DNA from: Pigmentibacter sp. JX0631
GTDB lineage: Bacteria; Bdellovibrionota_B; Oligoflexia; Silvanigrellales; Silvanigrellaceae
Length of the DNA stretch: 64,000 bases
Assembly: GCF_029873255.1 (NCBI RefSeq)
Contig: NZ_CP123622.1
Span: 496,501-560,500 of the forward strand
Reading direction: 5' to 3'
Positions 11,563-17,888 of this stretch are shown in pieces (the first letter of the stretch is position 1; every line of letters starts with the position of its first letter). The notes beneath the pieces were generated by a model. It searched no databases. It was not told the origin of the DNA and saw only the letters and a list, made by a program, of their open reading frames with translations. A program made the translations under genes and the position numbers.

Positions 11563-12663
11563 TTACTTTAAAAATTTTGGATTTAAAGAAATTTGGCGTA
11601 ATAAATGATCAGCAATAACTAACCAAAACATAGCTTCAACTAAAGGAACAGCCCTAGGTAACACACAAGGATCATGTCTGCCTGATTTTACTTTTAATTT
11701 TGATTCTTTTAGATCTTTTGTAACTGTCTTTTGTTCTTTGAATATTGTTGATACAGGTTTAAATCCAACACTAATAACAATGGGCATTCCATTTGAAATA
11801 CCACCTTGAATACCACCCGATTTATTTGTTTCAGTAACTACACTACCATTTTGATTTAGGAGGAATGGATCATTGTTTTCACTTCCTTTCGCAAAAGTAG
11901 AAGCAATACCATCTCCAACTTCAAAATATCTAACAGCCGGTAAACTTAGCATTGCTTTTGCTAAATCAGCTTCTAATTTATCAAATACAGGTTCACCTAA
12001 CCCTGCGGGAATATTTTTTGCAACGCAACGAATAACACCACCTAAAGAATCACCTTCAGTCTTAGCTTGTAAAATTTTTTCTTTCATTTTACTTTCAACA
12101 TATTCATCTGGACAGCGGATCATACTTGCTTCAATTTCTTGAAAAGAAATTGTATTCGCATTTACCTTAGCTTGAATATCATAAATTCTATCAACCCAAC
12201 CAATTACCTCTATATTTGGAAGTATGTGTTGGACATATGCTTTTGCCACGGCTGCTGCTGCAACTCGTCCAATAGTTTCACGAGCACTTGCCCTTCCTCC
12301 TCCACTAGAAGGATGAATTCCATATTTTTTGAAAGTAGTATAATCAGCATGCCCAGGACGAAATACCTGATTAATATCGCTGTAATCATTTCCTTTCTTG
12401 TCTTGATTGCGGACTACAATAGCAATAGGTGTCCCTAAAGTAATTCCATTTTCTAAGCCAGAAAGAATTTCACAAGTATCAAGCTCTCCTCTTGGAGTTG
12501 TAAATTCATTTTGTCCTGGTCTACGCCTATTTAAAAAAACTTGAACAGTTTGTTGATCTAAAGAAATTCCAGGGGGACATCCATCAATAATACAACCAAC
12601 CCCAACTCCATGCGACTCACCAAATGTAGAAATGCGAAAAAGTGTACCTAAATGACTCGCCAT
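11563..12663 (-). CDS. aroC: Chorismate synthase
   Basis: AroC converts EPSP to chorismate, the branch-point aromatic precursor, using reduced FMN. The signatures are all present: GESHGVGVGCIIDGCPPG near the N-terminus, RRRPGQNEFTTPR, FRPGHADYTTFKKYG, and GGGRASARETIGRVAAAAV. The late SGRHDPCVLPRAVP block is also intact. Length (366 aa) is normal. It sits 5 bp downstream of aroA and 13 bp upstream of aroB, indicating co-transcription. Confidence 0.95.
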   Translation of the reverse strand: MASHLGTLFRISTFGESHGVGVGCIIDGCPPGISLDQQTVQVFLNRRRPGQNEFTTPRGELDTCEILSGLENGITLGTPIAIVVRNQDKKGNDYSDINQVFRPGHADYTTFKKYGIHPSSGGGRASARETIGRVAAAAVAKAYVQHILPNIEVIGWVDRIYDIQAKVNANTISFQEIEASMIRCPDEYVESKMKEKILQAKTEGDSLGGVIRCVAKNIPAGLGEPVFDKLEADLAKAMLSLPAVRYFEVGDGIASTFAKGSENNDPFLLNQNGSVVTETNKSGGIQGGISNGMPIVISVGFKPVSTIFKEQKTVTKDLKESKLKVKSGRHDPCVLPRAVPLVEAMFWLVIADHLLRQISLNPKFLK

Positions 12664-12668
12664 AATTC

Positions 12669-14051
12669 TTAATTTTCCTTTAATGATTCAATTTGAAAGC
12701 CCAGTTCTTGAACTTGATTAAAAAATTGAGGTGCTGTTTTTTCTACACACTTAGGGTTGTTTATGATTACGTTATTTAATTTTGAAGCTATTAAAAAACC
12801 TGTCATTGCAAAACGATGATCTTCCCAAGTTTCAAATTCCCCCAATACTTCATCATATTTTTTATCAATTGGATATATAATAAATCCATCATTTTTTTCT
12901 TCTATTTTTAATCCTAAATTTAAAATATTTTTTACAAAACAAGAAATTCTATCACTTTCATGATGACGAATATGTGCTACACCAAATATTTCAACTGGAG
13001 CATCAGCAAATAAAGCAATAGCACCCATAGTTAACGCTTGATCACTATATTGAGAAAAGTCAAAACAAAAATTTCCTTTAGGTTTTGTTGGATTTTCATT
13101 TTTAAGAACAAAAATTTCATTGCTAAAAATTTGAATATTGGCTCCCATTTTTTGCAATAATTCAAGAAATTTAAAATCTGGTTGCAAAGTTGAGAACCCT
13201 AAATTTAATACTTTTAAATTAAAATTATGTAAAAATGCTAATGCTAGAAAGTAACAGCACGTTGAGGCATCAGCTTCAATAATATAATTTTCAATTCCTA
13301 ATTTTTTAATAGGTTGAAAACTAAAATTATTTAAATCTTTATCATGCTCAATAACACCACCAAATTTTTCAATAGCTTGTAACGTCATTCTTACATAATC
13401 CGGTTGCACTAAATTATCTATCCGCTCAATATTAATATTTTTATTAGCACCAACTGCACTTAATAGTAATCCACTTAAAAACTGTCCAGAGACTTTTCCA
13501 CTAATCTTACAACTTCCTTCAAGCTGTGAAGATTCTATCGCAAATGGCATTTGATCTGAATCTATTTTTGCATTTAGTTCTTTTAAAGCATGAATAAGTG
13601 GCGACAAAGGACGACGCATCAATTGCGGCTCACCACTAACCTTAGCTTTTAACTTTGAAAATGCGGGAAACGTATTTTGCCAATTTAAAATAACAGATGG
13701 AAAAAAACGGGCTAACGTACCAGCTTTGCCAAAAAACAATTCAACACTTTCATTATTATTATGCTTTGGAGGAGAAAGAACAACTTTTTTTAATTCATAA
13801 TCAACATATACGCTATAGCCAAGTCTTTTTAAAGACTCGAGTCCCCAATAGGAATCTTCTGAAAATAAAAAACCATATAAATTTATTGGTTTTGCACAAA
13901 GCCCTGCTAATACAATAGCTCTATTCGTAAAACTTTTAGATCCTGGTATCCATATTTCTTTTACAGCGCTATTTGTTACGCATGATGTTATTTTAATGGC
14001 TTTTACATCTTCAGAATGATTTAGTTCGAATAAAAATTTTTTTATCTGCAT
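12669..14051 (-). CDS. aroA: 3-phosphoshikimate 1-carboxyvinyltransferase (EPSP synthase)
   Basis: AroA joins shikimate 3-phosphate with phosphoenolpyruvate. Active-site segments are visible: PGSKSFTNRAIVLAGL (PEP/phosphate-binding Lys, Ser and Arg), GKAGTLARF (in place of the usual GNAGTAMR), GQFLSGLLLSA, EADASTCCYFLALA with the catalytic-site Asp, HHESDRI and WEDHRFAM. At 460 aa it is slightly longer than usual. The Asn-to-Lys change in the GNAGT loop and the N-terminal extension make it a divergent member. It heads the leftward aroA-aroC-aroB operon; the aminotransferase gene upstream is on the same strand, 120 bp away. Confidence 0.9.
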   Translation of the reverse strand: MQIKKFLFELNHSEDVKAIKITSCVTNSAVKEIWIPGSKSFTNRAIVLAGLCAKPINLYGFLFSEDSYWGLESLKRLGYSVYVDYELKKVVLSPPKHNNNESVELFFGKAGTLARFFPSVILNWQNTFPAFSKLKAKVSGEPQLMRRPLSPLIHALKELNAKIDSDQMPFAIESSQLEGSCKISGKVSGQFLSGLLLSAVGANKNINIERIDNLVQPDYVRMTLQAIEKFGGVIEHDKDLNNFSFQPIKKLGIENYIIEADASTCCYFLALAFLHNFNLKVLNLGFSTLQPDFKFLELLQKMGANIQIFSNEIFVLKNENPTKPKGNFCFDFSQYSDQALTMGAIALFADAPVEIFGVAHIRHHESDRISCFVKNILNLGLKIEEKNDGFIIYPIDKKYDEVLGEFETWEDHRFAMTGFLIASKLNNVIINNPKCVEKTAPQFFNQVQELGFQIESLKEN

Positions 14052-15350: not shown

Positions 15351-15641
15351 ATCTTACCTATCCATAATAAGTATAATTAATATCATTAAAAAATTATCCA
15401 TCCTTACTGTTGATATTTAATATCATTAAGAAATACCTAGTAAATTATTTATTTCTACATATTTTCTTATAAAAAAGGTTTTACTTTTAATTAATTCTTA
15501 ATCTTAATTGCACAATAAAGTTTAAGTTAACAAGAGTACTCAATAAAAAATTAAAAACTATTCAGAAAAAAAAATCAACATATAAAATATATTTTTTCTT
15601 CCAGATATTTCAAAGAAAAATCATTAAAAATAAAATTAAGC

Positions 15642-15692
15642 TTGAAAATAAATATTTTTTCTATAGAATAAATTTTACGTACAATGTTACGT
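15642..15692 (+). promoter_or_regulatory. Putative promoter and overlapping palindromic operator of the aromatic leader
   Basis: TTGAAA (15642-15647) and TAGAAT (15664-15669) are spaced by 16 bp and resemble a sigma-70 promoter. The inverted repeat ACGTA-N6-TACGT at 15677-15692 would lie at the predicted transcription start, where a repressor could act. In such an AT-rich region promoter-like matches are frequent, so support is weak. The rest of the 374-bp stretch 15351-15724 shows two copies of TTAATATCATTAA (near 15377 and 15418) and nothing else I recognise. Confidence 0.3.
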
Positions 15693-15724
15693 GTATTTAA
15701 ACCGCCATAACAGGGAATAAAATC

Positions 15725-15838
15725 ATGCTGGCCAATTTACGAAGAATAAAAATAAATACTAATATTAATAATTTATTAACCTCATTTTCTTCTTCAGCAT
15801 CTTTTTATTTTTATTCCTTCCGATTTTATAACTATTAA
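15725..15838 (+). CDS. Phe/Tyr-rich leader peptide (candidate attenuator)
   Basis: This 37-codon ORF lies about 120 bp upstream of the DAHP synthase gene and has a well-placed SD, AGGGA at 15712-15716, eight bases before the ATG. The peptide begins MLANLRRIKINTN and ends FYFYSFRFYNY, so eight of the last eleven residues are Phe or Tyr. Runs of codons for the end-product amino acid close to the stop are the hallmark of transcription-attenuation leaders such as those of pheA, trpE and his. The genes downstream make DAHP, prephenate-derived keto acids and prephenate, the route to Phe and Tyr. I read it as a sensor of charged tRNA-Phe and tRNA-Tyr. The peptide itself probably has no other function. 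Confidence 0.75.
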   Translation: MLANLRRIKINTNINNLLTSFSSSASFYFYSFRFYNY

Positions 15839-15877
15839 AAAAATCCATTCATAAAATTAAATATTACTAAAATTAAA

Positions 15878-15917
15878 CTTATTAATTGATGATAAAAATA
15901 TTTTATTAATTAATAAG
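15878..15917 (+). promoter_or_regulatory. Hairpin between leader peptide and DAHP synthase gene
   Basis: CTTATTAATTGAT (15878-15890) can pair with ATTAATTAATAAG (15905-15917) over 13 positions including one G-U. The loop of about 14 nt is itself partly self-complementary (AAAATATTTT). It lies 40 bp after the leader stop codon and ends about 25 bp before the DAHP synthase SD (GGAAAG). No U-run follows directly, so it is not a textbook terminator. It may be the anti-anti-structure, a Rho-related or translational control element, or part of the attenuator with partners I could not define by eye. Confidence 0.4.
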
Positions 15918-15956
15918 ATAATTCAAGAAAAAAAACAATTATATTGGAAAGTATAT

Positions 15957-16997
15957 ATGAATTACAATATTTTAAAAAAATTACCAGATTTCACCGAGAT
16001 AAAAAACCATGCACCACTAAAAATAAGTACTAAAGAAAATATAGCTCAACATAGAAGCGAAGTAAAAAATATTTTAACCGGAAAAGATAATCGTATATTA
16101 TTAATTATTGGTCCTTGCTCTGCGTGGCCTGAAGAAGCAGTATTAATATACGCTGATAAATTATTAGCTTTAGAAAAAAAAGTGAATAAAAAAATAAAAA
16201 TTGTTATGCGTGTTTATATTCAAAAACCAAGAACAACAAAGGGATGGATTGGTCCAATTATTCAAGCAGATCCTTTTAAAAAACCTGATTTAGTGACTGG
16301 ATTAAAATATTCTAGAAAGATGATGATCGATGTCGTAGATAAAGGACTCGCCATTGCTGATGAAGCCTTGTCAACTCATAATGCTGATTTATTTTTAGAA
16401 CTTCTTTCTTGGGTTGCAATAGGTGCAAGAAGTAGTGAAGATCAAGAACACAGGATTTTTGCCTCTGCAATTGAATGTGCTGTAGGTTTAAAAAATCCAA
16501 CTCATGGTTCACTAAAAGTTAGTGTCAATAGTATAGTGGCGGCTCAACATCATCATACCGCTCATTTTGACGGATATGAAGTTGAAACTAAAGGCAATCC
16601 TTATGCCCATTTAGTTTTACGTGGTAGTAATAATGGTCCAAATTTTTCAAATGAAAATTTAATTGAAGTAAAAAAATTTATGACAGCTCAAAACATCAAA
16701 AATCCAGCTGTTATCATTGATACTAGCCATGATAATTGTTTAATAAATGGGAAAAAAAATCACCTCTTCCAAATTAACAATATGTTTGAAATTTTAAATA
16801 ATATAAAAAATCAACACGAAATAAAGAAACTGGTTAAAGGATTTATGGTTGAAAGTTTTTTGAAAGATGGAAACCAAATTCTTGATTTAAACAAACCTAA
16901 CCAACTTGACTTAAATGGATTATCGATAACTGACCCATGTATTGGATGGGAAAAAACTGAAGAAATGATATTAAATTTATTTAATAATTATGCATAA
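15957..16997 (+). CDS. 3-deoxy-7-phosphoheptulonate synthase, class I (AroG/AroF/AroH type)
   Basis: DAHP synthase condenses erythrose 4-phosphate and PEP, the entry step of aromatic biosynthesis. Class I motifs are clear: LLIIGPCSAWPEEAVLIYA, VMRVYIQKPRTTKGWIG, WVAIGARSSEDQEHR and IIDTSHDNC. The last includes the metal-ligand region. At 346 aa the length matches the Escherichia coli isoenzymes. The feedback specificity cannot be read reliably. It is the first structural gene of a rightward trio and lies behind the Phe/Tyr-rich leader peptide. The SD is GGAAAG. The downstream gene starts 27 bp after its stop. Confidence 0.92.
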   Translation: MNYNILKKLPDFTEIKNHAPLKISTKENIAQHRSEVKNILTGKDNRILLIIGPCSAWPEEAVLIYADKLLALEKKVNKKIKIVMRVYIQKPRTTKGWIGPIIQADPFKKPDLVTGLKYSRKMMIDVVDKGLAIADEALSTHNADLFLELLSWVAIGARSSEDQEHRIFASAIECAVGLKNPTHGSLKVSVNSIVAAQHHHTAHFDGYEVETKGNPYAHLVLRGSNNGPNFSNENLIEVKKFMTAQNIKNPAVIIDTSHDNCLINGKKNHLFQINNMFEILNNIKNQHEIKKLVKGFMVESFLKDGNQILDLNKPNQLDLNGLSITDPCIGWEKTEEMILNLFNNYA

Positions 16998-17023: not shown

Positions 17024-17584
17024 TTGAAACTAGGTATTTCTGGAGACATTGCTTCTTTTTCTGAAGAAGCTGCAAAAATATATAGCAATTTATCGAAAAA
17101 TGAATTTAAATTTAGTTACTATAATGACATTGACGAAGTTTTATTTGCTGTATCAAAAAAAGAAATAGAATACGGCATATTTCCTATTTACAATTCCAAA
17201 GCGGGAATTGTGAGAAATGCATTTGCAGCTATGGGTAAATTTAATTTTAATTTTATTGAAACTATAACAATTAAAATTGAGCATAATTTAATTTTAAAGA
17301 AAGATATTGAATTAAATGAAATAAATAATATTATTTCTCACCCCCAAGCATTTGCTCAATGTGAAAATTATTTAAAAAAAACATTCAAAAATATTAAATA
17401 TATTGAAGAAAAAAATACCGCACTTGCAGGAAGAAAATTATCAAATGGTATGTATCCGGAAAATTCAGCAATAATAGGTCACAAAAATATTGCTGCAGTA
17501 TACAATTTAAAAATCAAAGCTAATAAAATACAAGATAATCCTGATAATCAGACTACATTTATTATTGTTGAAAATATTATTTGA
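17024..17584 (+). CDS. Prephenate dehydratase-like protein lacking the ACT domain
   Basis: The start is TTG behind a strong GGAGGAAA. The 186-aa protein matches only the catalytic domain of prephenate dehydratase, with GISGDIASFSEEAAKIY, GIFPIYNSKAGIV, ISHPQAFAQCENYL and NPDNQTTFIIV. The usual PIENS is PIYNS, and the catalytic TRF motif is T177-T178-F179: the Thr is kept and the Arg is replaced. No C-terminal ACT domain follows, so ACT-type Phe feedback is absent. It lies between DAHP synthase and chorismate mutase, supporting a role in making phenylpyruvate. ACT-less homologues also include non-aromatising prephenate decarboxylases (BacA type), so the exact reaction is uncertain. Confidence 0.72.
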   Translation: MKLGISGDIASFSEEAAKIYSNLSKNEFKFSYYNDIDEVLFAVSKKEIEYGIFPIYNSKAGIVRNAFAAMGKFNFNFIETITIKIEHNLILKKDIELNEINNIISHPQAFAQCENYLKKTFKNIKYIEEKNTALAGRKLSNGMYPENSAIIGHKNIAAVYNLKIKANKIQDNPDNQTTFIIVENII

Positions 17585-17624: not shown

Positions 17625-17888
17625 TTGAATTTAGAAAATCTCAGAACAGAAATTGAAAAAATAGATAAATTCATAATTGCATCAATGGCAAAAAGAGAAA
17701 AAATTTCTTTTAAAATAGGCGAATTAAAGAAAGAAATGGGAATCCAAATTTATGATTCAGAACGAGAAGAAAAATTAAACAATTACTACAGAAAATTATC
17801 TGAAAAGTATAATCTTGATCCTGTTTTTATTTTAGAAATTTTCAGTTTAGTCATTAAAAATTCTAGGACTATTCAAAAAAGAAAGTAA
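17625..17888 (+). CDS. Monofunctional chorismate mutase, AroQ type
   Basis: The start is TTG preceded by GGAAAGGAA. The 87-aa all-helical protein has the AroQ pattern: LRTEIEKIDKFIIASMAKRE, FKIGELKKEMG, IYDSEREEKL and a final helix ending in NSRTIQKRK. It rearranges chorismate to prephenate, feeding the neighbouring prephenate dehydratase-like protein. In enterobacteria both domains are fused in PheA; here they are separate neighbouring genes in reverse order. Only 40 bp separate the two genes, so they are probably co-transcribed. It converges with ftsY. Confidence 0.85.
   Translation: MNLENLRTEIEKIDKFIIASMAKREKISFKIGELKKEMGIQIYDSEREEKLNNYYRKLSEKYNLDPVFILEIFSLVIKNSRTIQKRK

Follow-up and report, generated by a model that had tools for sequence, protein, structure and literature searches.

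Leader peptides rich in Phe and Tyr codons are conserved before a phenylalanine operon and a TrpX-like importer in Pigmentibacter sp. JX0631 and its relatives, and probably act as attenuators

Background

The classical attenuators pheL/pheA and pheST rely on an intrinsic terminator, and DAHP synthase is not known to be included in the pheA unit; unlike these systems, the operon described here includes a DAHP synthase gene, and no intrinsic terminator was found for it. In Escherichia coli and other gammaproteobacteria, the Phe-rich leader of pheL/pheA precedes chorismate mutase-prephenate dehydratase (PMC11802643). Among known systems, the nearest to ours is AroR of Corynebacterium glutamicum, whose leader carries Phe-Tyr-Phe, lies before aroF (DAHP synthase) and acts through ribosome-mediated attenuation (PMC11802643, PMC4046766), and for which transcription changes on limitation of Phe only and not of Tyr (PMC11802643). 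The original prediction made for our locus, according to which known attenuators sense one amino acid, was therefore wrong on this point, since mixed leaders such as the Phe-Tyr-Phe leader of AroR are known (PMC11802643). Both AroR and the present leader combine Phe and Tyr codons before a DAHP synthase operon, but the present run is much longer, no terminator was found, and leaders of the same family also precede an importer operon.

In TnaC, Rho can be blocked by a ribosome that sits at the ORF's end, and the catabolic operon is induced by high free Trp, whereas the present leader would induce biosynthesis and uptake at low Phe/Tyr. The leader ORF of TnaC (tnaCAB, Escherichia coli), a system cited in PMC1262725, is followed by a hairpin-free region. 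The mycobacterial Cys leaders have their control codons just before the stop, are conserved across species and lack a terminator; when these terminator-less leaders were noted in 2005 their mode of regulation was unknown and Rho-dependent termination was first proposed (PMC1262725), and translation attenuation was reported later for the polycysteine uORFs (PMC9031893, PMC13236596). Our leaders resemble them in having control codons next to the stop and no terminator found, but the mycobacterial uORFs are leaderless and concern another amino acid in another phylum, while the present leaders have a Shine-Dalgarno (SD) sequence. Finally, LeuL, TrpL and MetL of Campylobacter carry C-terminal control codons, with RNAs that end shortly after the stop (PMC3847290); the likeness lies in an AT-rich organism, a short ORF and C-terminal control codons, the amino acids being different there. 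No description of the present leader family was found in the open-access literature, and what is new is that a dual codon run, a post-stop element that is conserved and the lack of a terminator are combined in a single leader family serving both synthesis and uptake.

Results

The window (i.e., the whole 64 kb stretch of Pigmentibacter sp. JX0631 DNA that was analysed) carries a short ORF originally predicted to be a leader peptide of 37 codons with a well-placed SD and a FYFYSFRFYNY end, 118 bp ahead of genes of the Phe/Tyr pathway. The ORF, its SD and its aromatic end were all confirmed, as was its position, and the three downstream genes were identified by profile matches, as follows.

15712..15716, + strand: Shine-Dalgarno AGGGA of the leader ORF, read from the sequence
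15725..15838, + strand: leader peptide ORF of 37 codons, encoding MLANLRRIKINTNINNLLTSFSSSASFYFYSFRFYNY, read from the letters
15803..15835, + strand: control-codon run FYFYSFRFYNY, with Phe/Tyr at 8 of its 11 codons
15957..16997, + strand: DAHP synthase, class I (AroFGH type; PF00793 3.7e-48; TIGR00034 277 bits, over cut-off)
17024..17584, + strand: prephenate dehydratase, 186 aa (PF00800 2.9e-42)
17625..17888, + strand: chorismate mutase, AroQ type, 87 aa (PF01817 3.8e-18; TIGR01791 over cut-off)

The leader stop is separated from the ATG of the next gene by 118 nt, and TTG is the start codon as listed for genes downstream. Of the 1291 window ORFs (at least 11 codons, ATG/GTG/TTG start, both strands), 15725-15838 alone has 8 or more Phe/Tyr among its final 11 codons. 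Phe and Tyr together make up 9.1% of the codons in the long ORFs of the window, and the binomial chance of 8 Phe/Tyr in the last 12 codons is ~2e-6, uncorrected for the number of ORFs. The control-codon run also includes the rare codons TCC, TTC, CGA and AAC (codon usage and all background frequencies were taken from the 64 kb window).

When 58 genomes of the phylum were compared, G011, a genome of the same genus, was the only one whose DAHP synthase is close to that of the window (74% identity), all other matches being at 42% identity or less. The G011 operon consists of the same three genes, and a leader ORF of 36 codons (MKVSLRENQIKSIISNSSSCKTSAAYSFYSFRFYNF, ending in ...SFYSFRFYNF) with an SD lies 125 nt upstream of the first of them, so that the leader, its SD and its aromatic tail are kept in the sole relative with the operon, as the original prediction anticipated. 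When the two loci are aligned, one block is identical, whereas the beginning of the ORF and most of the flanking sequence drift.

15808..15833, + strand: 26-nt block identical in this genome and G011 (pairwise alignment)

The prephenate dehydratase family was detected in three of the 15 genomes of the order (G000, G011 and, as a different gene, G003). A wider scan of genome contigs for DAHP synthase turned up a single Clostridiales relative (44% identity), among whose listed ORFs no leader could be recognised; plasmid relatives were all below 60% identity, and viral contigs contained none. Note that aroC-aroA lies within a few kb of the Phe operon both in the window (11563-14051, - strand) and at the G011 locus L082 (11611-15366, - strand), in arrangements that differ between the two genomes, with an aroB-like gene adjoining aroC in G011. 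This proximity hints at an early presence of the Phe operon in the genus, followed by its loss from the other species.

A signature scan of the loci under study revealed further ORFs of this type before an ABC transporter, with the ends ...FSFYFAYRFYF in G000 and ...FTFYFAYRFYF in G012. The first gene of this transporter encodes a PF04392 substrate-binding protein and is followed by those of a permease and an ATPase. The best NCBIfam match of the binding protein is TrpX, at 196 bits and below the model cut-off of 390. Close copies of this protein (at least 59% identity) exist in seven genomes of the genus, with no match in the other genera of the order, and each of the genus's seven fairly complete genomes has at least one leader of the family before the importer. 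These importer leaders are METLLKVLLKNRQQRNTLFLTSSTFFSFYFAYRFYF, METLLKVLLRNRQQRNTLSIASSAFFTFYFAYRFYF, MKANLELKLSNRHQQTCLINASFSFYASYFAYRFYF and MQTKIRSKVIQRNTQLSSPLSSSCTTSYFTYRFYFFF, as well as MQTKIRSKVIQRETQLSSPLSSSCVTSYFTNRFYFFF, MHTNIGFIETERNFQFSLPFSSARKSSYLAYRYYFFF and MLTRPPVLLRSLIHNIKRNISTSLMSSYFAYRFYY, the last of these having identical upstream DNA in G008 and G009; two more (MLVKLFRDIVHKLKQNKIAKTTPKSYYSYYLAY and MLVKLFRNIVIKLKQNKIAKLTSKSYYSYYQAY) contain Tyr only. Altogether, 11 distinct leaders were found in seven genomes, before the Phe operon or the TrpX-like ABC importer, with a length of 33-37 codons, and most importer leaders end in SYFxYRFYF. From the content of its leaders, we infer that the importer carries Phe/Tyr.

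The Tyr-only leaders belong to second importer copies (L094, G000:C1 ~3202604-3202750; L095, G012:C1 ~1124980-1125125), and their tails, SYYSYYLAY and SYYSYYQAY, reach a TGA stop exactly where other leaders have CGA; they possibly represent a Tyr-specific branch of the leader family. In G010, the second importer copy (L093) comes straight after another transporter gene, with its leader ORF lost and only a post-stop fragment (TTTTTTTTAAAAATTCCTTTAGG) remaining. In G000, the importer operon adjoins a trp operon (L077 4826-6061, - strand) that begins with a class II DAHP synthase and includes trpEG and trpDC fusion genes, and no Trp-rich leader ORF was seen upstream of it. Similar leaders were found neither before this class II DAHP synthase nor before other class II genes.

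Profile searches separated the family clearly from the background. A DNA profile of 80 nt (model R1), covering the last codons and the post-stop element, was applied to 56 genomes of the phylum; all 12 loci scored E <= 2e-5, and the best match after them had E = 0.003. A protein profile run over 15 genomes of the order recovered the same 12 loci at E <= 5e-11, with the next at 0.014. Since the leaders themselves had served to build the two profiles, the E-values measure separation from background and not independent discovery; the window leader scored E = 1.2e-11 in the protein search and is itself a row of the profile. The next-best matches were considered as further members of the family and rejected, as they lay inside other genes or in an unfitting context: the 12 weak DNA matches inspected were nearly all inside or across long reading frames, with the leader arrangement in none, and four of the weaker protein matches, also inspected, had no fitting context.

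The conservation within the family is concentrated at the end of the leader and just after it. Indeed, mean pairwise identity among eight divergent leaders rises from 0.41 in the 5' stretch and 0.45 in codons 1-24 to 0.70 in the last 13 codons and 0.73 in the 35 nt that start at the stop, and falls to 0.58 in the remaining spacer. Three close pairs, compared over their last 12 codons, show 7 synonymous changes over 21 sites versus 4 non-synonymous changes over 87 sites (Fisher p = 0.0008), with no synonymous excess in codons 1-24 alone; Phe and Tyr are exchanged at the DNA level (TTT to TAC, TTT to TAT), extra Phe codons are inserted in threes, and gaps in the tail measure 3 or 6 nt. The exchanges, the insertions in threes and the synonymous excess indicate that selection maintains the aromatic tail, either as a peptide or as a codon run, with 5-9 Phe/Tyr in the last 12 codons of the 11 distinct leaders and no Trp codon in any of them. 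Moreover, a GGAG, GGGA or GGAA motif stands at the SD place in 11/11 leaders, and the start codon, the SD and the frame are equally kept in all of them, although the ORF diverges over its first two thirds. The conservation of the frame argues that the leader ORF is translated.

Some features are conserved at the nucleotide level as well. The codon two before Arg (S/A/T) is always NCC, a form found in 6-11% of such codons in the background, and, with one exception, the leaders that keep the Arg encode it by CGA, when CGA accounts for 10% of background Arg codons. These near-constant codons indicate that something beyond the peptide is also held constant, which sensing by a codon run alone does not require. 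The extreme reading would be a DNA or RNA binding site over which the ORF is incidental, and the NCC and CGA codons, together with GCCTATYGATT being kept where the frame ends in TGA, speak for it; as start codon, SD and frame persist over a diverging ORF, and as the tail gaps and synonymous excess respect the codons, we regard it as extremely improbable. A second possibility is an arrest peptide, whose YFxYRFY tail in the exit tunnel would stall the ribosome on free Phe/Tyr, in the way that TnaC responds to Trp, and not on uncharged tRNA. The tail is indeed conserved as a motif with a fixed Arg, beyond its aromatic codons, and leader length is nearly constant (see above). However, Arg is replaced by a stop in two leaders, Ala, Thr and Ser interchange, Phe and Tyr interchange freely, and the motif thus varies at places where arrest peptides usually do not; in addition, the sign would need to be repression by the free amino acid, and the conserved rare codons point to RNA too, against a pure arrest peptide. 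An arrest peptide is therefore improbable in our view.

The signals around the ORF were then located as follows.

15642..15669, + strand: probable sigma-70-type promoter TTGAAA-N16-TAGAAT (consensus scan), 55 nt before the leader ATG
15809..15817, + strand: TTTTATTCC, able to pair with GGAATAAAA (15714-15722) across the SD of the leader itself, predicted duplex -10.7 kcal/mol
15839..15873, + strand: post-stop conserved element, UCC at 15844-15846, then AAATTAAATAT at 15854-15864, predicted unstructured

The leader region as a whole contains no more promoter-like sites than shuffled sequences. In G011, the end of the best promoter-like site (TTGATT-N17-TATACT) is likewise 55 nt from the leader ATG, and five importer leaders have TTGCCA-N17-TANNNT 89-94 nt before the ATG, the sites being less clear in the remaining leaders. 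As to a transcription start downstream of 15838, the best promoter-like site was predicted upstream of the ORF in both genomes, in line with the original prediction. A promoter inside the post-stop element was also considered, and it was dropped because -35/-10-like spacings were seen by eye in some loci and not across them. An imperfect inverted repeat (ACGTACAATGTTACGT, window 15678-15693) lies just after the -10 box and could be an operator; it is absent in G011.

The post-stop element is common to the Phe-operon and importer leaders, and its UCC starts 4-6 nt after the stop in 9/11 leaders and 14 nt after it in two early-stopping ones. RNAalifold predicted no pairs in a consensus structure of the conserved block, no terminator-like site was found in 15351-16000, and the importer spacers, folded without a terminator scan, gave no G+C-rich hairpin with a T run. 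Rfam leader, riboswitch and T-box families had no match up to E = 5 in 15351-16100, and the folding energy of the leader transcript was close to that of shuffles, with z = -1.6 for the window and -0.1 for G011. Classical attenuator folds, in which two RNA structures exclude each other, were expected from the original prediction and sought by folding and RNAalifold, with long-range alternatives covered in part; none was found.

The missing terminator would also suit translation attenuation, as proposed for ermC-type and mycobacterial polycysteine uORFs, in which the leader end masks the SD of the gene unless a ribosome stalls there, and in several loci the UCC right after the stop could pair with GGA of the gene's SD. 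Nevertheless, covering the stop region did not consistently change the predicted accessibility of that SD, and cognate pairs of post-stop element and gene SD paired no better than swapped ones (p = 0.93), so we consider this reading unlikely. A further reading invokes messenger stability, the stalled ribosome shielding the AU-rich post-stop element from RNase E or a similar enzyme. Its conserved AAATTnAATAT is AU-rich, predicted single-stranded and begins 16-19 nt after most stops, and it may match a preference of RNase E; even so, we give this reading slightly less weight than the arrest peptide.

One weak structural signal was seen, in that the tail of each leader can pair with its own SD. 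Cognate pairs were better than swapped pairs (permutation p = 0.016), and in 9/9 leaders tested the pairing beat synonymous recodings (z -0.5 to -2.7); the combined z of -4.2 assumes independence, and the leaders are not fully independent. The register of the pairing differs between loci. We suggest that this predicted pairing may shut off re-initiation on the leader, a shut-off of the kind that reportedly was described earlier for trpL.

Discussion

Our findings suggest that a leader-peptide attenuator responsive to Phe and Tyr very probably controls the Phe operon. This reading of the sequence is strongly supported by the conservation of the leader in a second biosynthetic operon and before a putative aromatic amino acid importer; the Tyr-only tails ending at TGA (second copies in G000 and G012) were counted against it. 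In the mechanism that we propose, expression of the operon would depend on charged tRNA-Phe and tRNA-Tyr through the translated leader. When Phe and Tyr are both plentiful, the ribosome would complete the leader and leave, thus exposing the post-stop element, and the exposed element would cut off downstream expression, most likely through Rho-dependent termination. A shortage of either amino acid would make the ribosome wait on the last codons and cover the element, and transcription would continue. Indeed, since the control codons occupy the last ~10 codons and UCC comes just after the stop, a ribosome held there would cover the element.

Because no terminator was found, Rho is the simplest agent for the output step, and we propose it tentatively, at somewhat less than even chances. 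An excess of C over G after the stop, as would be expected for Rho, occurs in 11/11 leaders, but it is modest, for the most part no larger than control spacers can show, and is no proof. Alternatively, the codon run, the motif with its fixed Arg and the post-stop element could form a terminator-less module that senses Phe and Tyr and acts through a new output step other than intrinsic termination or SD masking, in which the nascent peptide might take part, and that joins uptake and synthesis in one regulon of a phylum that has been little studied; we hold this to be rather unlikely, if less so than translation attenuation.

The gene content of the order, which comes from partly incomplete assemblies and on which the following metabolic reasoning is based, offers a reason for a leader containing both Phe and Tyr codons. 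No prephenate dehydrogenase (PF02153) scored over the cut-off in the 15 genomes of the order, when 14/14 control genomes were positive, and phenylalanine hydroxylase (PF00351) is present in 10 of the 15, including both operon carriers (G000 and G011). Thus, Tyr is probably made from Phe, and the operon probably feeds both, which would explain why both are sensed; the dual reading of the original prediction thereby gains a plausible metabolic basis. In the rest of the genus, neither prephenate dehydratase nor prephenate dehydrogenase was detected, some of these assemblies being incomplete, which suggests that those species need imported Phe. Most of the genus is thus probably unable to make Phe and depends on phenylalanine hydroxylase for Tyr, and this need for import would give the importer leader a reason to sense the same Phe/Tyr pair.

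Conclusions

Altogether, these results would bring leader-peptide control to a phylum for which we found no description of it, and would extend such control from a biosynthetic operon to the matching importer. The absent terminator makes the family a test case for leader function in AT-rich genomes. Lineages that make Phe and lineages that probably import it provide a natural comparison within the genus, and, as Tyr is probably derived from Phe, the leader would respond jointly to a product and to the compound made from it.
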